From the NCBI GenBank assembly GCA_937929815.1, contig CALFUW010000059.1, positions 1 through 58,151 of the forward strand: DNA of 58,151 bases, given 5' to 3'. This document shows positions 44,245-57,862 of the stretch, one piece after another. Position numbers and translations under genes: made by a program. Origin of the DNA: an uncultured Flavobacteriales bacterium. Its GTDB lineage: Bacteria; Bacteroidota; Bacteroidia; Flavobacteriales; Schleiferiaceae. The notes under the pieces were generated by a model. It had not been told where the DNA came from. It did not search any database and worked only from the letters and a program-made list of their open reading frames with translations. The number at the start of each line of letters is the position of its first letter. Positions within the stretch are counted from its first letter, which is position 1.

Positions 44245-44478
44245 ATGACAGAGATTAAAGTCCTGGGCCCCGGTTGCCCAAAGTGCAAAACCACCTACAA
44301 TAATGTACTAGAAGCACTCAAACAAACAGGCATTGAAGCCAATGTGGTAAAAGTAGAAGACATTGAAGAAATGATGAAGTACAATGTGCTCACCACGCCC
44401 GTTTTGATGATTGATGAAGAAATCAAAATAAAAGGCAGAGTGGCTCAGGTAAATGAAATTATTGAACTTTTGAGATGA
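44245..44478 (+). CDS. Thioredoxin-family redox-active disulfide protein
   Basis: MTEIKVLGPGCPKCKTTYNNVLEALKQTGIEANVVKVEDIEEMMKYNVLTTPVLMIDEEIKIKGR; CPKC site. ATG at 44245. Confidence 0.9.
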   Translation: MTEIKVLGPGCPKCKTTYNNVLEALKQTGIEANVVKVEDIEEMMKYNVLTTPVLMIDEEIKIKGRVAQVNEIIELLR

Positions 44479-44601
44479 TTTGAAGATGAATTGATGATAT
44501 GATTTGAAGATGAATTGTTGATATGATGAAATGATGAATCAAATCAAACAATCTTCAAATCAACTAATCTTCAAATCAAACAATCTTCAAATCAAACCAT
44601 C
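44477..44601. repeat. Octamer-phased array A: forward words then reverse-complement words
   Basis: GATTTGAA at 44477 and 44501 in 8-nt register (GATGAATT, GATGATAT, GATGAAAT); TTCAAATC at 44554, 44570, 44586. Confidence 0.9.
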
Positions 44602-44607
44602 AACGAT

Positions 44608-44991
44608 ATGGAAAATCAAACATTAGTAAAAGAAATTTGCCCAACTACCACGCAAAAATGGGTAAAAAACGGAGCATTATTAGTAGATGTCCGTGAAAAA
44701 GACGAAGTAGCTCAATTAGCGTATGACGTTCCCAACATCATTAACATTCCGCTTAGCGAATTTGAAGAACGCTATAGCGAAATTCCTAGAGACCAACCGG
44801 TAGTAATGGTTTGCAAAGGTGGTGGAAGAAGTTTAAGAGCCGCTGCATTTTTAGTAAATCATGGCTATACCAATGTAGTGAATATGCAACACGGAATTGC
44901 TCGTTGGGTGCAAAAAGGCTTCCCTACCAAAGGCGATACATCGGTGGTTACGGGTAACGGTTCGTGTTGTTCAAGTTCGGGTTGTTGCTGA
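44608..44991 (+). CDS. Rhodanese-like domain protein with Cys-rich C-terminal tail
   Basis: 127 aa; LLVDVREKDEVAQLAYDVPNIINIPLSEFEERY...VMVCKGGGRSLRAA...; ends GNGSCCSSSGCC. Confidence 0.9.
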   Translation: MENQTLVKEICPTTTQKWVKNGALLVDVREKDEVAQLAYDVPNIINIPLSEFEERYSEIPRDQPVVMVCKGGGRSLRAAAFLVNHGYTNVVNMQHGIARWVQKGFPTKGDTSVVTGNGSCCSSSGCC

Positions 44992-45174
44992 TTTGAAAAT
45001 TCGTTGATTTGAAGATGAAACGATTTGAAGATTAGATGATTTGAATATTTATTAACTTGATTGGTCAATCTTCAAATCAAATCATCAACCCATCTTCAAA
45101 TCATATTATCAACACATTTTCAAATCAACAAATCTTCAAATCAAATAATCTTCAAATCAAATAATCTTCAAATC
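44990..45174. repeat. Octamer-phased array B: forward words then reverse-complement words
   Basis: GATTTGAA at 44990, 45006, 45022, 45038; TTCAAATC at 45071, 45095, 45119, 45135, 45151, 45167. Confidence 0.9.
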
Positions 45175-45178
45175 AACT

Positions 45179-47658: not shown

Positions 47659-48072
47659 ATGAAAGCAACAAACATCTTTTCCGCCGTCGTAACAATTATG
47701 ATGTTACTACTCACCGCTTGCAGTAGCGAAGCACAAAACGCCAAGCAAAATTCTGCTGCAACGTATGAATCTAAAATTGAAGTCATACAGTTTCATTCTG
47801 AACACCGTTGTATGACTTGCCAAAAGATTGAAGCACTGACCAAAGAAACGCTAAAAAGTTATCCAAACATTCCGTTTTTCTTAGTGAATGTGGACGACAA
47901 AAAGAATGCAAAGCAAGCCGAACAGTTTGAAGCCACAGGAACTGCCCTTTTTCTATACAACCCAAAAACAGGTAAGAAAAAAGACTTGACCGATTTTGCT
48001 TTTATGAATGCAGGTAACAAAGAAAAATTTATGGAAGGATTGAAGAAGGAGATTAATCGATTTGAAGATTGA
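47659..48072 (+). CDS. ArsF-like protein (nitrophenyl compound nitroreductase subunit ArsF family)
   Basis: 137 aa; lipobox LLTACSS; IQFHSEHRCMTCQKIEALTKETLKSYP...VNVDDKKNAKQAEQFEATGTALFLYN. Confidence 0.82.
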   Translation: MKATNIFSAVVTIMMLLLTACSSEAQNAKQNSAATYESKIEVIQFHSEHRCMTCQKIEALTKETLKSYPNIPFFLVNVDDKKNAKQAEQFEATGTALFLYNPKTGKKKDLTDFAFMNAGNKEKFMEGLKKEINRFED

Positions 48073-48186
48073 TTGATTTGAAGATGGGTTGATCTGAAGA
48101 TTGATTGATTTGAAGATTGATTGATTTGAAGATGGGTTGATTTGAAGATTAACAGATTTATTAATTTGAAAATGTATCGATTATGA
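48057..48186. repeat. Octamer-phased array C1 (forward), including six consecutive 16-nt units
   Basis: 48057-48152: TCGATTTGAAGATTGA, TTGATTTGAAGATGGG, TTGATCTGAAGATTGA, TTGATTTGAAGATTGA, TTGATTTGAAGATGGG, TTGATTTGAAGATTAA; register continues to the ATG at 48183. Confidence 0.95.
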
Positions 48187-48536
48187 GAAATGATAAGGAG
48201 AATGAAATTGTAAATGTGAGTTTTGAGTTTGCCTTGAAAATCATTGCTTTTTGCGAAATGTTAGAAGAAAACAGAAAATATGTAATTGTACGGCAGTTAC
48301 TAAAATCAGGAACTTCCATAGGTGCAAACATCAGAGAAGCCCAAAACTCTGAAAGCAAAGCAGATTTTATTCATAAAATGAAAATTGCAGCTAAAGAAGC
48401 AGACGAAACAGAATATTGGATTCAACTGTGTAAAGCATCTGAAAACTATCCATTTGACCCTGAACTTGAAAAGGCAATCCAAAGCATCATCAAACTTTTG
48501 GGTAAAATATTAGGCACACTCAAACGCAACCAATAA
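48183..48536 (+). CDS. Four-helix-bundle protein (23S rRNA intervening-sequence protein / S23 family)
   Basis: 117 aa; FEFALKIIAFCEMLEENRKYVIVRQLLKSGTSIGANIREAQNSESKADFIHKMKIAAKEADETEYWIQLCKAS is characteristic. Confidence 0.93.
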   Translation: MRNDKENEIVNVSFEFALKIIAFCEMLEENRKYVIVRQLLKSGTSIGANIREAQNSESKADFIHKMKIAAKEADETEYWIQLCKASENYPFDPELEKAIQSIIKLLGKILGTLKRNQ

Positions 48537-48539
48537 ATC

Positions 48540-48603
48540 AATCAATCTTCAAATCATCTCATCAAAACATCTTCAAATCATATCATCAAACAATCTTCAA
48601 ATC
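48540..48603. repeat. Octamer-phased array C2 (reverse complement of C1)
   Basis: TTCAAATC at 48548, 48572, 48596 (24-nt period); intervening 8-mers end in ATC. Confidence 0.92.
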
Positions 48604-48610
48604 AAAAACT

Positions 48611-49318
48611 ATGGAGTGGCTAAATGAAATAGCACAAAACCGCGAAACACCAATTTTAGCTGCATTCGCTTTGGGTTTGTTGACAGCTATTGCTCCTTGC
48701 CCACTGGCTACCAATGTAACGGCTACGGCATATATTGCAAAGACTATATCTGACAAGAAAAAAGTTTTGTTGAGTGGTTTGCTCTACACCTTGGGCAGGG
48801 TTTTTTCCTATACCTTAATTGGTGCAATCATCTATTTTGGTGCAAGCAAATTTCAAGTTGCCAAGCTTTTTCAAGGCAATGGAGAAAAGTACATTGGTTT
48901 TGTATTGGTTATTTTAGGTTTGATAATGTTGAATATTATCAAATTCAACTTTATCAAAGGCGGAAATTTTACTGACAGGTTATCTGAAAAATTCAAAACC
49001 AAAGGGTTACTAGGTTCATTTTTATTAGGTGCTTTATTTGCTTTAGCATTTTGCCCCTATAGTGGAGCTTTATTTTTTGCAATGCTCATTCCAATGACCC
49101 TTTCTGCTGATGCTGGCTTGGCTTTACCCGTTGTATTCTCGTTTGGGACAGGATTACCCGTAATATTGTTTGCCTTTGTAATTGCGTTCAGTTTGGAAAA
49201 ATTAGGAATGTATTTTAAAGCGATTACCAAAGCTGAAAAAGTAATGCGATTCGTAGCAGGTTTGGTTTTCATTCTGACAGGATTGTATTACATCAATATT
49301 TATTTTAAGTTGATTTGA
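48611..49318 (+). CDS. ArsG-like efflux permease (aromatic arsenical efflux / DsbD-like transmembrane family)
   Basis: 235 aa polytopic; GLLTAIAPCPLATNVTATAYIAKTISDKKKVLLSGLLYTLGRVFSYTLIGAI and LAFCPYSGALFFAMLIPM. Confidence 0.85.
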   Translation: MEWLNEIAQNRETPILAAFALGLLTAIAPCPLATNVTATAYIAKTISDKKKVLLSGLLYTLGRVFSYTLIGAIIYFGASKFQVAKLFQGNGEKYIGFVLVILGLIMLNIIKFNFIKGGNFTDRLSEKFKTKGLLGSFLLGALFALAFCPYSGALFFAMLIPMTLSADAGLALPVVFSFGTGLPVILFAFVIAFSLEKLGMYFKAITKAEKVMRFVAGLVFILTGLYYINIYFKLI

Positions 49319-49447
49319 AGATGAGTTGATTTGTAGATTTGAAGATGAATTGATTTGAAAATTTGAAGATGAATTGATTTGAAAATTTGAAGATGAATTG
49401 ATTTGAAGATGAATTGATTTGAAGATGAATTGATTTGAAGATGAGAA
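49312..49447. repeat. Octamer-phased array D (forward only, 17 consecutive 8-mers)
   Basis: GATTTGAA GATGAGTT GATTTGTA GATTTGAA GATGAATT GATTTGAA AATTTGAA GATGAATT GATTTGAA AATTTGAA GATGAATT GATTTGAA GATGAATT GATTTGAA GATGAATT GATTTGAA GATGAGAA. Confidence 0.95.
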
Positions 49448-50179: not shown

Positions 50180-53100
50180 TTATCGAATCAGATAGATGTA
50201 TCCGCTGGTTCGGGGTTTATCCTGTTCTGAATTACTGTCTATATCTGATCCCGGCCAACGAGTTCCGTCGATAAACATCGCCTTGATTTTCCAAACGTAG
50301 GTGCCGGAGGGCAACTCAGCTCCTGTATTAAAATGGCGTCCGTTCCAGCCAACGGCGGGCTGCCGGTCTGGGGTAAGCTCTGAAGTTCGGAAGACTAAAT
50401 TGCCCCACTGATCAAAGATGAGGAGTTCGTACTCGCGAAGAGAGTGTCCTTTAGGGAGAAACACCCCGGCCTCACCGGCATCGGGTGCATCCGGTGCCAA
50501 AGCATTTGGGACAGTCAGGTTGAGCCTGGGAAGAAATACTTCCAGGCAGGTATCGTGGGTACATCCATTGGTATGGACAGCCGAGAGGCACACAGTAAAA
50601 AAATAATCCTGCAGCAGCCGATTGACCTTGTAGCGATAGCGGACACTATCGGCGATCAGGGTCGTACCATCCCCCATATACCATGTAAATGTGGTCTGAC
50701 CGGGCAGAAAGATTGACTGGTTGGAAAAGATAAGGTATCCAAATTCATCAATTTTCCATGTGAAGATGGCTGTAGGAGTTGGCAATACGACAATAGGTAC
50801 CGGAAATTGCAAGGTATCCATGCACCCAAGGTTGGTCTCTACTATCAATCGCACTGAATAGGTACCTACCTGCTGATAGAGGTGAACGGCATTAGGCGAA
50901 GGACCATCTTGGAAGCTACCATCACCAAACTCATACCTCCAACGCACGATGTATCCAAGCGAGGTGTCAGGGAAAGTGCTCAGGTTGGTAAAAATGACTT
51001 GTAATGGCTGACAGCCGCTGGTATCTGATATGCTGAAGTTCGCGATCGGAAGAGGTGATACAATCAGGTCCTGCTCTGAAGTGTCGATGCAGCCGAATGA
51101 GTTGGTGGTGATGAGTCTCACACGATACTTACCGGGGGAAGTGTAGGTAAATGTCGGATTTATGAGTGTAGATGTATAAAATCCCGGATTGCCCAGTGCA
51201 TCGAAATCCCAGAAATATCCCTGTGCACCGGTAGATTGACTGGTAAAGCTAAAAGTCTGAGGTGCTCCGCATACTGTCTGCGATATGGAGGTAGCCACAA
51301 ACGCAGCTGATGGTACCGGATGAATGGTAATCTGCTCAAAAGCGGTATCGTAACAACCGGACTGGGTACCATGGATGAGAATAACTGTGTACGTTCCAGG
51401 TGATGAATAGGTATGTTGTGGATTGGACTGGGTGGATGTGTTGCCGTCACCAAAATCCCAGAGTGTGTAGCTGATGGCACCGGATGCCAGCGTGGTTTGA
51501 TTCTGGAATATTACGGGTTGCTGATTCAAACATCTGTCGGAGGCTGTAAACCTGACTTCCGGCCTTGGGACCACTGTCACAGACTTACAAATGGTGTGCG
51601 TACAACCATTAAAGCTGGCGACCGTCAGACAGACATTGTAAATCCCGGCTGTATCAAACCGTATGGCCGGATTCTGTAAAATGGATGTTTGACCATTTCC
51701 AAAATCCCACTGATAGCCTGTAATCGAACCCCCGGCAATGGTGGCCGAGCCTGTGAAGTATGTCGTATCACCTAGGCAGACATTGTTTGTAAAGGAAAAG
51801 TCAGCCACAGGAGAGGGGTTTACCTGAATGAGCTGATAGACCGAATCCACAGAGCAACCGTCGGTAACGACCATCATGACATTGTATGTACCAGCAGCCG
51901 GGAAGGAAAACTGTACGGACTTGCCCATAGCCACACCACCAAGACACTGTTTTGTAGCAGAATTAAAATTAAAACACCATGAGGTCGTGGAACTATTTGG
52001 CGTATTATCCTGAAACTGAACAAAAAGTGGAGCACAACCGGTAGAGGGTGAAGAGGTGAAAAATCCATTGAGCGTCTTACGAATGATGCGCACGGTGCGG
52101 GAGAATGTGGATATGCCACACGTATTGACAGCTGTCATGACTACGGTATAAATCGTATCATTGTTTTGCCCGTTGAAGGTGAAGAGGTGGCTTTTGATGC
52201 CAAATTGAGTCACAGGACCTTGTGGAGTAATAATGGTGGTCGGATATACCGTATCGATGGGACTGCCGTCTCCCCAGTTGATCACGATGTAATCGGGGCT
52301 TCCCAGCGTTTGTCCGTCGATGAGAAAATTAATTAGTTTTGGGCTGCATCCTATGGTATCAGACGCCAGAAAACCGGCAGTAGGTTGTGGCCTGACCGTG
52401 ATGGCACGCACAAGGCTATCGCCAGCGCAGCAACTGCTCACTATATGTTTTAAAAAATACGTTGTATCACTTGTCGGCGAACCAGGTAAGGGCGGCAACA
52501 CGGGTGGGGTGGGTTGATTGCTGGAAGCAAGAACTATCTGCTGACCAGAACTATTGAGAGCATACAGCGTCCATTGATAGGACTGTATAAATCCGATTGA
52601 TTGTGGAGTAACCAAGGGAGCAGATTGTCCTGCGCAGATGGTATCAGCGCTAAGCACGAATCCTGCAACAGGTGAAGGCAAGACATAAAAATTTCTCACC
52701 CTTTCAGAGTCACAACCAAACTGGGAGACCGTTCTGAGTCGGACGGATACAAATCCGGTGTCAGTAAATGTATGTGTAATAACCGGCGTGGTATAGTTGA
52801 TAACTCCATTGTTGCCAATATCCCATTGATATGACGTAATGGTGCCCCCAAGGGGTGGGATCGTAGTTTGATCAGCCATTTGAGTATTAATCCCCTGGCA
52901 AATGCTGTCCGAGAAGCAACCATTGCTTACGGCAAATTGAACCTGAGGCAGTGGTCTGACTATAACCGTATCCGAAAAAGTACTGCTGCAACCGGCAGAG
53001 TCAGTGACTGTGTAAGTAACCACATAAGTACCTTGAGCACTATATGTATAAGAGGCATTGGCAGTAGTGGCCGTGTCACCGTTTCCGAAATTCCAATGGA

Positions 53101-56100
53101 ATGAGGTCAGGGGTCGCATGCTGATGTTTTGTCCGATAAACACAATGGTATCACTAACGCACCCGGTGGGCGGCAAAAATGACGATTGCGGGCGTCCGAG
53201 CAGCGTTACGCTTTTGTCCAGAGAATCCGCACAGCCGCTGATTGTACTGATTTTCAACCGAATGGTAACAATGCTATCGGAAAGCTGATTGTTTTGAAAG
53301 GTAAATGAAGGATTGGGTAATGTAGAGGCAAGCACACCGTTAATATACCACTGATAGATGGTGCCACCTGCACTGGAATCAAAAGCCTGGACCGCGAGGG
53401 GACTGCATCCTGTAGTGGTCGAAAGACTGAAATCGGCTGTCGGTGCCGGAAGCGAAAATGCAATCACCTGCGTAGAATCTTCACCACATCCATAAGGGCT
53501 TGTTGTAATCAGCCGAATAATTACAGTATCTCCGGGGGCAGATAAGGTGTACTGCAAGGAGTGTATCCCCGTGTATGTGGCCAATAGATTATTGTTGGCA
53601 GTCAGTACTTTCCAGGTGTATTGGCTATTAGCAAAGGGGTATTCGACTGCCTTAAACCTGGATGTATCTATAACAAATGGAGCACAATCCGAATTGGACA
53701 GGGTCTGGATCTGCGCTTTTGGAAGCGGCCGAACCACTACCAGCCCCACGGCAGTATCTGAGCAGCCAAAGGAATTGGTGGCGATCAGGCTAATGGAATA
53801 GGTGGTATCCGATGTTCCGGGATTTGTAAATACGAATGTTGGATTCTGAGCATTGGAGGTACCCAATCCGTCAAAATTCCATTGAAAAGTCAGATCACTC
53901 TGTGTGCTGCCTGACAGATTGGTGGATGACAAATTGGAGAAAGTGACAGCAGCCGGTGTGCAGGTATCAGAGGGTGAAGCAATAAACGATGCCGACGGAG
54001 TAGGATAGACGGTATACAATGCAGAGGTAGAGTCGGAGCACCCTTCAGGGGTGGTAAGTAGCATCTTAATGGTATAAACAACGGAGTCATTAAAAGAAGC
54101 CGGGGGTGTAAACAGAGCTGAGTCCCCTGATACGGTGAAGGTCAGAGGAGGTGTGGATGTAAACTGATAGTTATTCAGTGCTGAATAGTTAGATATCAGA
54201 GCAAAGACCGGGTCTGCACCGCAACCTGAAGTACCGGACAGCGTAAAAGAGGAAACCGGGTACCCTTTGACCCGAATTGTGACTGAGGAATCACTGGTGC
54301 ATCCATCTGAAGAAGTCACCGAGAGCGTAAGGGTGTATAAGCTGTCATAATTACCCTGAAAATAAGGAAACTGAAAAACGGGTTGAGCAGCTGTCGGGCT
54401 GCTTACGGTAGCGCCTCCGGTCACTGTCCACAGGTACTGAAGGACACCCTTTCCGATCGATTGGTTGATTATACTGATGCTGTCACCTGCACAGATTACC
54501 GTGTCTGAGGGCAAAAAGGCGGCAGAGGGATTTGGAAATACATTCACAATGCGGGTGACGCTGTCGCGGCAGCCCTGGGCATTGATCAGCACAAGGGATA
54601 TCGGTACGGGAAGATCAGAGGCAGAGGAAGAATTGGTGGCAGTATAGCTAAGGGTAGCTGACGTGCCAATGAGCGTGGAACCGGCATACCATTGGCGAAT
54701 GGCTGCGGCTGTGCCTGTATCAGTAAGCACTATACTGAGAGGAGAGCAACCACTATCCACTGATGTAGTAAATCCGGCAACAGGAGGCAGTGCAATGCCA
54801 ACAAATGCAGTATCGTACGAGATACAGCCTGTAAGCGTATCAATGACTTGTAAAATGTAAGTAAAGGCGGCCGAATCAATGGCTTGTATCTGAGGGGTGG
54901 AAGCGGTGACCCCGGCCGGTACAGACGACCAGAAATACTGATAGGAAGGATTTCCCGGCTGACCAAGAAAATAGACATCACCCTTACAAATGGTGGTATC
55001 CGGACCGGCATTGGCTGTGGGGAGAGGAGCCACCAGCACAAATACACTGTCCACTGCCTGACATCCGACAGAGTCCGTTACAAATAGGTAAAACCATTGA
55101 TTTTGCTGGGGATTAACAAATGTAGGAGTCAGAGTATTGGAATTTTGGAGCAATGATGAGGGTTGCCATTGAATGGTAAATGGGCCTGTACCGCCTGAAG
55201 CGGATCCTGAAAGTTGAATGTTTTCGTTGAGACAGGTTTCCACATTTGACCCCGCATCTGCAGATACGAGAGGAAAAATTGCAATAAATACCGTATCGTA
55301 GGCAAAACAACCAATCGAATCGGTGACCATCAGGACATATTGCTGAGAAGCATTACCTATGGTTACGGTAGGATTTGCAATGTTTGGATTGCTTAGTCCC
55401 GTCGTTGGTGACCAGGAAAATTGATAGCCTCCGGCACCACCCAGTGCCGTAGCTTGTAGCTGAAACTGGCTGCCGCTGCAGACAAGAGTATCATTTCCGG
55501 CAAAGGCTGTAAGCATCGGATTGACTGATATAAGGACCGAATCCGTCGCGCTGCATCCGATAGAATCTGTTACGGTAAGATAATACCAGGTATTTGATGT
55601 AAGACCACTAACAATGGGATTCAGAACATTGGTGTTGTTAAGACCCGTGGCTGGAGACCATTGTATCAAAAGTGTTCCACTACCTCCCGAGGCACTCCCA
55701 CTGAGTTGCACAGCCGATGTATCACATATGATCCCACCGGAACCGGCATTGGCTACAATCTGAGGATTGACGGTCACGAATACCTCCAAAGTATCGCGAC
55801 AGCCATTGGCATCTTGAAGGAAAGCAAAAAACTGTGTACTTTGAGTCAAATTAGTGAATGTGACGGCAGAGCCAGTTGCCGTGTAGCCGGCTGGTGCGGA
55901 TTCCCAGGTGATCTGTACAGGAGCCTGTCCTGTAATATTCTGTAGGGCAAATGACACATCGTCGCCAAAACAAACCAATGTATCTGATATTGTATCTGCA
56001 CCGGGCAGCGGATAAATTGTCACAACCATAGAATCACTTATAGATCCACAGGCATTCTGCAGCTCCAAAACGACCTGATATAAGCCCGGCTGGCTGAACT

Positions 56101-57862
56101 GGATAGCAGGTTGGGCGGAAGAAGAATTACCGGCAGTGAATGACCAGCCCGTGGCGGGAGTAATGCTCCACATGCGGGTCTGAATCGGTGAGAGGCTGTC
56201 AAACTCTGTGGGTTGAAGGCCGGCAGCAGAGAAGTCAAGAAGTAACGGGCCACAATGCACAGTATCAGAAGGCAAAGTCACTTCCGGCCTGCCCCTGATG
56301 ATGATGGTGGTATCGATGGATACTGTATCGCAGTAGTTGTACACATATTGCCGGATCTGGTACTGGCCAGCCGTGAAGAAGACAATCTGGGGATCGGGAT
56401 GGCGAAGGCTATCCACGGCAGCCCAGCCGGTGAGTGGGGTTATTTCGTAAAAAACCTTATTATCCTGACATGTATTGAGAAGGTTGGCGAGATTGGAGAT
56501 CTGGATGGTGTCACCGCTGCATGCGGGCAGACCACTTATTACAAATCCTGAATCCGGAAGTTCGTTGACACAAATGGTTTTAATAAGTGTGTCGTAATCA
56601 CAGTTGATGCTATTGGCTACTACCTGGCGTACCTGGTAGATCCCCGGCTGGTTGAAAGTAACATTCAGCGTAGTAGATCCGGATGTCCAGTTCTGAGGGT
56701 TGATGGAGTTGTTATTGTTGCCAAGATTTCCTGTATTTAGCGTATATGTTGCGGGGGTAATGTTCCAAAGGATCTTTCCGACGCTATCGCAGGATACATT
56801 TGTGGGGATGCTACCCTTCTGGCTATTGTCGACGATGGCAACCGGACGATTTATGCAGACGCTGTCAGGGTTGATGAAATCAGCAAGAATAGGTGAAGCT
56901 ATTCGTATAGGGCTGATTTGAGCAATGCTCACGTCGCATGGATTGGTGGCGGTGATTTTTACGAAGAAGGCATTGTTGCCTCCTCCGCCAGGAACTGTGA
57001 ATCCGCAAGAACCTATCGTAAATGTATGTAAGTACTGTGCCGGTGGTGGATGATTGAATACAACCGGAGGGCTGCCATCGCTGACTTCGATGGTGTATGT
57101 GGTACCCGGTGGATTGTTGACTGTATTGAGTATATCAAATACCATACTGACACCTGAACTGCCAATACAGCCGGTATTATTACCCGGTGTTGCAAGACCC
57201 ACAGCCGGATTAGTGCCGTAGAAGATTCTGAATTTTAAGGTATCCCAGCATCCATTGGGGGATTGCATGGCCAGTAAACAATTATAGTTGCCAAATGCAT
57301 TGTAAACTTTCTGAAAGGTAGAAAAACTGGTACCTGAATCGGATGTGCCGTCGCCAAAGTCTAGATGATACTTGGTGTAAGGCTGCAAAGTGGTATTAAT
57401 GATGATAAAAGTGTCAATATTGAGGGTACCGCAACGAGCGAAGGTGTTGACGCCCTGATAATTGCTCACGGTGGTATTAGGGATCTGAATGGACGGGGCT
57501 ACAGAGGGCAGCACATTGAGATACAGCGAGTCCTCGAACTCGGTGGCACCGGAGTAAACGATCAACCGAGCGAGAAACATGCCTGATGCAGGGTAGGATA
57601 TACTCGGCACTGTGAAGGTGGTGGCAGTAGGCGGGGTTGCTCCGGTGAGAATCCAGCGCAGGGAGTCCAGCGGTAGTCCGAGACCGCTGGTGTCTGCCTG
57701 TAGGAGTATGGGATAATTGCGGCAGATGACCAGAGTGTCGTTTGCCGCAGGTGGTGTGCTGACGACAGATACTTGTGCCTTGGCGACCAAGGCGGCAAAT
57801 AGCCAGAAGCAGGAAGCAATGATGTAACTATGTATTCGATTCACCGCATTAATCTGGTACAA
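50180..57862 (-). CDS. Giant secreted PKD-domain repeat protein with T9SS type B (gliding-motility-associated) C-terminal domain
   Basis: 2560 aa; signal peptide; many PKD-type motifs (YQWDFGNGQTS..NPAIRFDTAGIYNVCLTV); C-term VPNALAPDAPDAGEAGVFLPKGHSLREYELLIFDQWGNLVFRTSEL...WNGRHFNTGAELPSGTYVWKIKA. Confidence 0.95.
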   Translation of the reverse strand: MYQINAVNRIHSYIIASCFWLFAALVAKAQVSVVSTPPAANDTLVICRNYPILLQADTSGLGLPLDSLRWILTGATPPTATTFTVPSISYPASGMFLARLIVYSGATEFEDSLYLNVLPSVAPSIQIPNTTVSNYQGVNTFARCGTLNIDTFIIINTTLQPYTKYHLDFGDGTSDSGTSFSTFQKVYNAFGNYNCLLAMQSPNGCWDTLKFRIFYGTNPAVGLATPGNNTGCIGSSGVSMVFDILNTVNNPPGTTYTIEVSDGSPPVVFNHPPPAQYLHTFTIGSCGFTVPGGGGNNAFFVKITATNPCDVSIAQISPIRIASPILADFINPDSVCINRPVAIVDNSQKGSIPTNVSCDSVGKILWNITPATYTLNTGNLGNNNNSINPQNWTSGSTTLNVTFNQPGIYQVRQVVANSINCDYDTLIKTICVNELPDSGFVISGLPACSGDTIQISNLANLLNTCQDNKVFYEITPLTGWAAVDSLRHPDPQIVFFTAGQYQIRQYVYNYCDTVSIDTTIIIRGRPEVTLPSDTVHCGPLLLDFSAAGLQPTEFDSLSPIQTRMWSITPATGWSFTAGNSSSAQPAIQFSQPGLYQVVLELQNACGSISDSMVVTIYPLPGADTISDTLVCFGDDVSFALQNITGQAPVQITWESAPAGYTATGSAVTFTNLTQSTQFFAFLQDANGCRDTLEVFVTVNPQIVANAGSGGIICDTSAVQLSGSASGGSGTLLIQWSPATGLNNTNVLNPIVSGLTSNTWYYLTVTDSIGCSATDSVLISVNPMLTAFAGNDTLVCSGSQFQLQATALGGAGGYQFSWSPTTGLSNPNIANPTVTIGNASQQYVLMVTDSIGCFAYDTVFIAIFPLVSADAGSNVETCLNENIQLSGSASGGTGPFTIQWQPSSLLQNSNTLTPTFVNPQQNQWFYLFVTDSVGCQAVDSVFVLVAPLPTANAGPDTTICKGDVYFLGQPGNPSYQYFWSSVPAGVTASTPQIQAIDSAAFTYILQVIDTLTGCISYDTAFVGIALPPVAGFTTSVDSGCSPLSIVLTDTGTAAAIRQWYAGSTLIGTSATLSYTATNSSSASDLPVPISLVLINAQGCRDSVTRIVNVFPNPSAAFLPSDTVICAGDSISIINQSIGKGVLQYLWTVTGGATVSSPTAAQPVFQFPYFQGNYDSLYTLTLSVTSSDGCTSDSSVTIRVKGYPVSSFTLSGTSGCGADPVFALISNYSALNNYQFTSTPPLTFTVSGDSALFTPPASFNDSVVYTIKMLLTTPEGCSDSTSALYTVYPTPSASFIASPSDTCTPAAVTFSNLSSTNLSGSTQSDLTFQWNFDGLGTSNAQNPTFVFTNPGTSDTTYSISLIATNSFGCSDTAVGLVVVRPLPKAQIQTLSNSDCAPFVIDTSRFKAVEYPFANSQYTWKVLTANNNLLATYTGIHSLQYTLSAPGDTVIIRLITTSPYGCGEDSTQVIAFSLPAPTADFSLSTTTGCSPLAVQAFDSSAGGTIYQWYINGVLASTLPNPSFTFQNNQLSDSIVTIRLKISTISGCADSLDKSVTLLGRPQSSFLPPTGCVSDTIVFIGQNISMRPLTSFHWNFGNGDTATTANASYTYSAQGTYVVTYTVTDSAGCSSTFSDTVIVRPLPQVQFAVSNGCFSDSICQGINTQMADQTTIPPLGGTITSYQWDIGNNGVINYTTPVITHTFTDTGFVSVRLRTVSQFGCDSERVRNFYVLPSPVAGFVLSADTICAGQSAPLVTPQSIGFIQSYQWTLYALNSSGQQIVLASSNQPTPPVLPPLPGSPTSDTTYFLKHIVSSCCAGDSLVRAITVRPQPTAGFLASDTIGCSPKLINFLIDGQTLGSPDYIVINWGDGSPIDTVYPTTIITPQGPVTQFGIKSHLFTFNGQNNDTIYTVVMTAVNTCGISTFSRTVRIIRKTLNGFFTSSPSTGCAPLFVQFQDNTPNSSTTSWCFNFNSATKQCLGGVAMGKSVQFSFPAAGTYNVMMVVTDGCSVDSVYQLIQVNPSPVADFSFTNNVCLGDTTYFTGSATIAGGSITGYQWDFGNGQTSILQNPAIRFDTAGIYNVCLTVASFNGCTHTICKSVTVVPRPEVRFTASDRCLNQQPVIFQNQTTLASGAISYTLWDFGDGNTSTQSNPQHTYSSPGTYTVILIHGTQSGCYDTAFEQITIHPVPSAAFVATSISQTVCGAPQTFSFTSQSTGAQGYFWDFDALGNPGFYTSTLINPTFTYTSPGKYRVRLITTNSFGCIDTSEQDLIVSPLPIANFSISDTSGCQPLQVIFTNLSTFPDTSLGYIVRWRYEFGDGSFQDGPSPNAVHLYQQVGTYSVRLIVETNLGCMDTLQFPVPIVVLPTPTAIFTWKIDEFGYLIFSNQSIFLPGQTTFTWYMGDGTTLIADSVRYRYKVNRLLQDYFFTVCLSAVHTNGCTHDTCLEVFLPRLNLTVPNALAPDAPDAGEAGVFLPKGHSLREYELLIFDQWGNLVFRTSELTPDRQPAVGWNGRHFNTGAELPSGTYVWKIKAMFIDGTRWPGSDIDSNSEQDKPRTSGYIYLIR

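Follow-up and report, generated by a model that had tools for sequence, protein, structure and literature searches.

An S23-family four-helix-bundle gene between inverted arrays of short words in an ars operon: a recurring element that may insert at operon stop/start junctions

Introduction

Why should a gene for a small four-helix-bundle protein stand between the arsF-like and arsG-like genes of an ars operon, and why should it be bracketed by inverted arrays of octamers? This is the question raised by a locus in contig CALFUW010000059.1 (assembly GCA_937929815.1) of an uncultured Flavobacteriales bacterium of the Schleiferiaceae, of which the whole stretch of 58,151 nt that was analysed is called the window in the following. 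An earlier reading, made from the letters alone and referred to here as the sequence-only reading, had compared the segment with the intervening sequences (IVSs) of 23S rRNA, which carry S23 open reading frames (ORFs) and are excised by RNase III (PMC4990558). As possible explanations it had named a mobile unit or an RNA structure that is bound or managed by its own protein. In the present analysis the combination turned out to be a recurring one, and we refer to an S23 or intervening sequence protein (IVP) gene located between tandem arrays of 7- or 8-nt words, forward upstream and reverse-complement downstream, as an IVP element.

Tandem words of this size have a history of their own. In cyanobacteria such heptamers go by the name of short tandemly repeated repetitive (STRR) sequences. 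Heptamer repeats such as TAACTGA have been described in Beggiatoaceae, Cyanobacteria and Bacteroidetes, where they spread with 'no mechanism evident' and where some of the forward repeats overlap stop codons (PMC4679880). Among open-access papers we found no earlier report of a link between IVP and repeats or of the repeat letters described below.

Results and Discussion

The element in the window

The 117-aa product, taken for a four-helix bundle in the sequence-only reading, is a member of the S23 family. It matches PF05635 (23S_rRNA_IVP) with an E-value of 1.1e-22 and 80.6 bits (cut-off 33.8) and TIGR02436 with 91.6 bits (cut-off 24), and its AlphaFold model consists of four helices with a mean pLDDT of 93. 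The closest solved structures are 2RLD (BT_0352, TM 0.8) followed by 2GSC (Xcc0516, TM 0.7), and weaker fold matches were obtained with the Avd protein of diversity-generating retroelements (DGRs; 4DWL, 8UB7). A search with Rfam revealed no rRNA in the window, and the insert sits between arsF and arsG, outside any 23S rRNA gene.

Both arrays noticed in the sequence-only reading proved to be real when analysed with Tandem Repeats Finder (TRF). The forward array, which leads from the 3' end of arsF towards the IVP gene, has a period of 16 nt (6.3 copies, 87% matches) and also one of 48 nt; its unit is an octamer starting with GAT (GATnnnnn), and the units follow each other in the order GATTTGAA GATTGATT GATTTGAA GATGGGTT and so on. 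As the final codons of ArsF (RFED and the stop codon) are located inside this array, array and arsF gene overlap. The reverse-complement array has a period of 24 nt with TTCAAATC present three times, at positions 48548, 48572 and 48596, and ends 7 nt before the ATG of arsG. Across 74 nt the two arms show a complementarity of 74%. In the window GATTTGAA occurs 36 times against 5.7 expected, a number that was reached in none of 100 shuffles, and TTTGAAGAT occurs 29 times against 1.6 expected.

Recurrence of armed IVP genes

To see the arrangement in a wider context, it helps to look at the relatives of the window IVP. In the flanks of 80 of them TTTGAAGAT is found about once per kb upstream on the plus strand and about 0.9 times per kb downstream on the minus strand, compared with 0.02 per kb far off and 0 downstream on the plus strand, which corresponds to an approximately 50-fold and strand-specific enrichment. 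Nine complete Bacteroidota genomes provided an unbiased set of 98 IVP genes. In this set the match between the two arms of one gene had a median of 19.5 as opposed to 12 for mismatched arms from the same genome, and the own arm was the best partner within the genome for 56 of the 98 genes, where 9 were expected (p 1e-29). Flank periodicity in this set was elevated at lags 7 and 8 and stayed at background at the remaining lags from 4 to 13. The idea that the arms are copies of one genome-wide repeat is ruled out, the arms being locus-specific even inside one genome.

PF05635 genes are present in 233 of 297 sampled Bacteroidota genomes, with up to 19 matches in a single genome, and the best matches of this phylum-wide sample possess inverted arms as well, although with differing words. 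Inverted 7-nt arrays also flank all nine plasmid IVP genes that were inspected (from Nostoc, Anabaena, Gloeocapsa, Euhalothece, Treponema and Bernardetia), with words such as GTAATTC, GTCGGAA and GTGATTA. The proposed analogue of the 23S rRNA intervening sequence outside rRNA, with an S23-family ORF between inverted arms, recurs widely, in hundreds of bacteria that each have a 7- or 8-nt word of their own, and we have hardly any doubt that the IVP element is real and general.

Some single occurrences are worth recording. On plasmids of Nostoc and Anabaena (L122 and L125) a heptamer-armed IVP gene is located between cas2 and cas1 and runs antisense to the two of them. IVP relatives are also encoded by two phage contigs of human faecal origin that carry no annotation (MT835815.1 and MT835590.1), and one Bacteroidota-type IVP element (L050) was found on a contig that bears the name Bifidobacterium breve and probably belongs to a wrongly labelled metagenome bin.

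Arm period and word vary with the IVP lineage

That the arms are tied to the four-helix-bundle protein had been suggested from the single locus, and the comparison of many elements bears it out. For 156 elements the period could be settled as 7 or 8, and each was compared with its nearest IVP relative having no flanking genes in common with it and less than 60% identity. This relative has the same period in 140 of the 156 cases (null 77) and, when the loci seeded by the window are left out, in 79 of 94 (null mean 63, largest 77). On a maximum-likelihood tree of 125 IVP proteins the period label changes only 10 times, compared with a mean of 39.5 after shuffling, and none of 500 shuffles was as low. 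The window IVP is placed in a clade consisting of octamer-armed elements throughout (support 98/97), and the neighbouring clades, which include cyanobacterial plasmid proteins, are heptamer-armed.

The word follows the same pattern. Elements of the window clade repeat [T/G][T/A]G NN [A/G]AT every 8 nt, alike in both arms; the core is almost fixed and the two middle positions are free, which would suit recognition by a protein more than simple slippage. Arm matches within an IVP clade reached 20.5 and 17.4, those between clades 9.9 and 12.8. Concerted evolution of the arms within a clade is a different matter: pairing with the own arm was only 21.0 against 20.5 for the orthologue in one clade and 19.5 against 17.4 in the other, and as own pairing is hardly above orthologue pairing, recent homogenisation of the arms was not demonstrated. 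Inside single genomes, no difference in IVP similarity was seen between pairs of the same and pairs of different period, so that the period signal stems from close relatives across genomes. From this co-segregation of period and word with the protein lineage, it appears well supported that the arms are cognate to their IVP.

Empty, filled and solo sites

According to the sequence-only reading the segment inserts between operon genes without killing them, and related ars operons agree with this. In six relatives (L317 to L322) arsF and arsG are separated by 0–13 nt, and in L317 the ATG follows the stop codon without any spacer; in two others (L034 and L040) the same gap holds an IVP gene plus arms. 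The gap that matches solo element 1 of the window (Table 1) measures about 14 nt in L319 and L320. A second variable gap was followed in Flavobacterium, where 60 of 61 genomes have the conserved gene downstream of it. In the 30 loci retrieved, this gap contains an IVP gene plus arms, short inverted repeats without an ORF, or nothing, as in L148, where the junction reads TAATG. One genome (L160) carries a divergent IVP with another word at this position. L138 and L141 share a flanking gene that is 99.4% identical and have IVPs of 60% identity; two IVP types thus alternate at one site, and the arms switch with them.

Two of these Flavobacterium loci (L144 and L147) carry, with no ORF, a long inverted repeat of another kind, CCTCACCCCAACCCTCTCCAAAGGAGAGGGAGC. 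The solo heptamer hairpins of this Flavobacterium site were also considered as a high-copy family, which had to be rejected: CAAGARYCAAGA is found only 1–10 times per genome, often barely above the reversed control, and such a low count indicates no burst.

The position of the elements relative to the neighbouring genes is rather constant. The array starts at most 12 nt from the upstream stop codon in 75% of 57 octamer elements (control 7%), and the downstream arm ends a median of 9 nt before the next start. In the unbiased set, 79 of the 98 IVP genes point the same way as the genes on either side, and 3 run against both. Even genes of core operons are separated in this way, namely sdhA and sdhB, scoA and scoB, nuoC and nuoD, groES and groEL (L118) as well as sucB and lpd. 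The IVP itself is under purifying selection, with a median ratio of nonsynonymous to synonymous substitution rates (dN/dS) of about 0.08. The array words are similar to the Bacteroidota promoter motif (TAnnTTTG) but not an exact match.

Arrays without the gene

The genome-wide association of arrays and IVP genes, suggested as a check in the sequence-only reading, holds in one direction only. Starting from the gene, arrays are found with the enrichment given above, but starting from the array, none of 30 octamer-array loci had an IVP gene within 500 nt and most of them were solo hairpins. Octamer arrays are consequently no markers of a nearby IVP, and a strict linkage of the two is ruled out. 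At the level of whole genomes a window-clade IVP, defined by at least 54% identity with a threshold set after the identities had been seen, is present in 7 of 11 array-bearing genomes and in 1 of 17 array-less genomes, the latter being hand-chosen and not random (p 0.002); leaving out a fragment reduces the first number to 6 of 11 (p 0.007). By analogy this suggests a relation of autonomous and non-autonomous elements like that of repetitive extragenic palindromes (REPs) and REP-associated tyrosine transposases (RAYTs) (PMC3733652), albeit not a clean one.

Further arrays of the operon

For the window the sequence-only reading had delimited one element, at 48057–48610. The insert itself was recognised correctly, but three more arrays of the same operon had been missed (Table 1), two of them inverted pairs without a gene. 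The third is an array between arsG and the FmdE-like gene whose last unit provides the ATG of the latter and whose reverse partner is absent.

Table 1: Genes and arrays of the ars operon in the window.
Feature	Coordinates	Strand	Identified by	Remarks
Solo element 1, forward arm	44475..44538	+	TRF, word counts	begins at stop codon of small thioredoxin-like gene
Solo element 1, reverse arm	44539..44601	-	TRF, word counts	no ORF between arms
Solo element 2, forward arm	44989..45050	+	TRF, word counts	begins at rhodanese stop codon
Solo element 2, reverse arm	45068..45177	-	TRF, word counts	no ORF between arms
arsF-like gene	47659..48072	+	NF040494, E 2e-26, above curated cut-off	thioredoxin fold
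Upstream arm, forward octamer array	48050..48159	+	TRF, direct-repeat search	GATTTGAA-type, 16-nt super-period
IVP gene	48183..48536	+	PF05635, TIGR02436, AlphaFold, 2RLD	117-aa four-helix bundle protein
Downstream arm, reverse-complement octamer array	48537..48604	-	TRF, direct/inverted-repeat search	24-nt super-period
arsG-like permease gene	48611..49318	+	NF040495, E 9e-88, above curated cut-off	3' of insert
Forward-only array	49310..49444	+	TRF, word counts	between arsG and FmdE-like gene

In the 1.45 Mb draft genome all copies of GATTTGAAGAT lie within this operon except for two isolated single words, and the doubled array pattern was present in none of 87 other searched genomes of the family. 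Both observations point to a horizontal acquisition, and the ars operon was probably taken up together with its arrays. Directly 3' of the operon, on the minus strand and thus opposite to it, positions 50180–57862 encode a 2560-aa repetitive surface-type protein in a region of higher G+C.

A possible explanation and its rivals

The reading that we prefer, and to which we would give about an even chance, is that the element inserts at stop/start junctions and that its arms are motifs cognate to its IVP. The protein, which like its relatives of solved structure is probably oligomeric, would recognise its own arm word, and it would probably do so on single-stranded nucleic acid, because a spacing of 7–8 nt mismatches the turn of double-helical DNA. 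Recognition might then mark both ends, so that host enzymes of replication or recombination copy the element or insert it at intercistronic junctions; these enzymes have to be invoked because the IVP is without an evident nuclease. Landing at a stop/start junction would leave both neighbours intact and would place the IVP gene under the operon promoter, and solo pairs of arms, of which the ars operon has two, could be internal-deletion or trans-mobilised derivatives. Recognition of the arms by the protein, the choice between DNA and RNA as its ligand and the way of movement are steps that we infer from these sequence patterns.

Several points weigh against such an insertion element. The relatives with empty sites have diverged too far (at most 65% protein identity) for the insertion ends and the target to be placed base by base. 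Neither a transposition event nor a duplicated target nor an element in several identical copies was demonstrated, and the IVP has no known catalytic motif. In the 98-gene set about 40% of the IVP genes are without arms above the same-genome 95th percentile, and in the genome comparison arrays occur without a window-clade IVP in three genomes (G112, G373 and G099), while a fourth (G293) has the IVP without matching arrays. The low dN/dS and the long stay at one site also suggest a maintained function and slow turnover.

Alternatively the element could act at the RNA level as a true intervening sequence: its arms would pair in the polycistronic mRNA, RNase III would cut, the IVP RNA would be released and the IVP would bind or manage the stem. 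Family and layout are those of the 23S IVSs excised by RNase III (PMC4990558), the predominantly co-directional orientation suits a transcript-borne element, and folding is strong with z -5.7 for the whole insert and z -4 to -5.9 for the solo arrays. However, any inverted repeat folds, the sense orientation could also be explained by the need of the IVP for an operon promoter, and the arms are degenerate tandem words instead of one well-paired stem. Selected RNA pairing would moreover give more G.U than A.C mismatches between the arms on the sense strand, but the ratio of G.U to A.C was 98:98 in the window clade and 68:61 in the nine genomes, as predicted from composition. So the RNA fold anticipated in the sequence-only reading does exist, whereas RNA structure as the selected feature was not borne out. 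Since RNase III tolerates mismatches and the wobble test is a statistical one, we regard the RNA-stem reading as no more than weakened; action at the RNA level seems unlikely to us.

A domesticated gene for operon spacing or regulation would be a vertically inherited host IVP, the arrays being binding or processing sites that have grown by slippage and tune the neighbouring genes, without any mobility. It would agree with the purifying selection, with the location in core operons and with the same gaps being filled in many related species, and arrays that hold stop and start codons could affect reinitiation. Yet it is difficult to reconcile with the six empty arsF–arsG sites and the TAATG junction of a sister Flavobacterium, with different IVP lineages at one site next to a 99% identical neighbour gene and with the presence on plasmids of Cyanobacteria and Treponema, and we consider it distinctly improbable. 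That the arrays are host-borne STRR-type repeats or hairpins in whose loops IVP genes merely landed would fit the outcome of the array-first search and the description of TAACTGA-type heptamers without an IVP link (PMC4679880), but seems very unlikely to us as period and word track the IVP lineage and not the host, genomes with a window-clade IVP more often have octamer arrays and each of the nine plasmid genes has inverted 7-nt arms.

Extending the insertion element beyond the individual locus, we tentatively propose that IVP genes and the 7–8-nt short tandem repeats of Bacteroidota and Cyanobacteria could be the two halves of one element, each lineage recognising and spreading its own word, inserting at operon stop/start junctions and leaving solo arrays behind. 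If true, this would be a class of mobile elements run by a non-catalytic helical-bundle protein, and the short tandem repeats, long described without a mechanism, would have a candidate cause. PF05635 genes are annotated merely as 'four helix bundle protein' or '23S rRNA-intervening sequence protein', and their armed placement at gene junctions gives this large unexplained family a testable role, as the pairing of word and protein predicts that each IVP binds its own word.

Comparison with known systems

With the 23S rRNA IVS, known for example from Coxiella burnetii, the IVP element shares the protein family, an ORF between inverted arms that are able to pair, and the placement in a transcribed unit without destroying it. 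It differs in that it is located between protein genes and is present in many copies per genome, and in its arms, which are tandem 7–8-nt words and not a unique 28-bp stem; selection for RNA pairing was not seen here. The Avd protein of DGRs belongs to the same fold class, but neither a reverse transcriptase nor a template repeat is found beside the window IVP, whose neighbours are ArsF, ArsG and FmdE.

STRR heptamers and the TAACTGA repeats of Beggiatoaceae are likewise tandem, intergenic and often overlapping with a stop codon. Their unit has 7 nt and that of the window 8 nt, and sister IVP lineages, including the cyanobacterial ones, have 7-nt units. Unlike the IVP arrays they are known as solo repeats of unknown origin, with no protein partner in the papers found (PMC4679880). 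In contrast to the RAYTs, which are HUH tyrosine transposases, the small four-helix-bundle IVP is devoid of catalytic motifs, and this all-helical PF05635 protein is the sole ORF of the insert; its arms are tandem words and REPs are GTAG palindromes. What the IVP element has in common with REPtrons and TIRtrons is a protein gene flanked by repeats together with many solo copies of the repeat elsewhere, represented in the ars operon by two inverted pairs without a gene and by a single array, and in other genomes by solo arrays.
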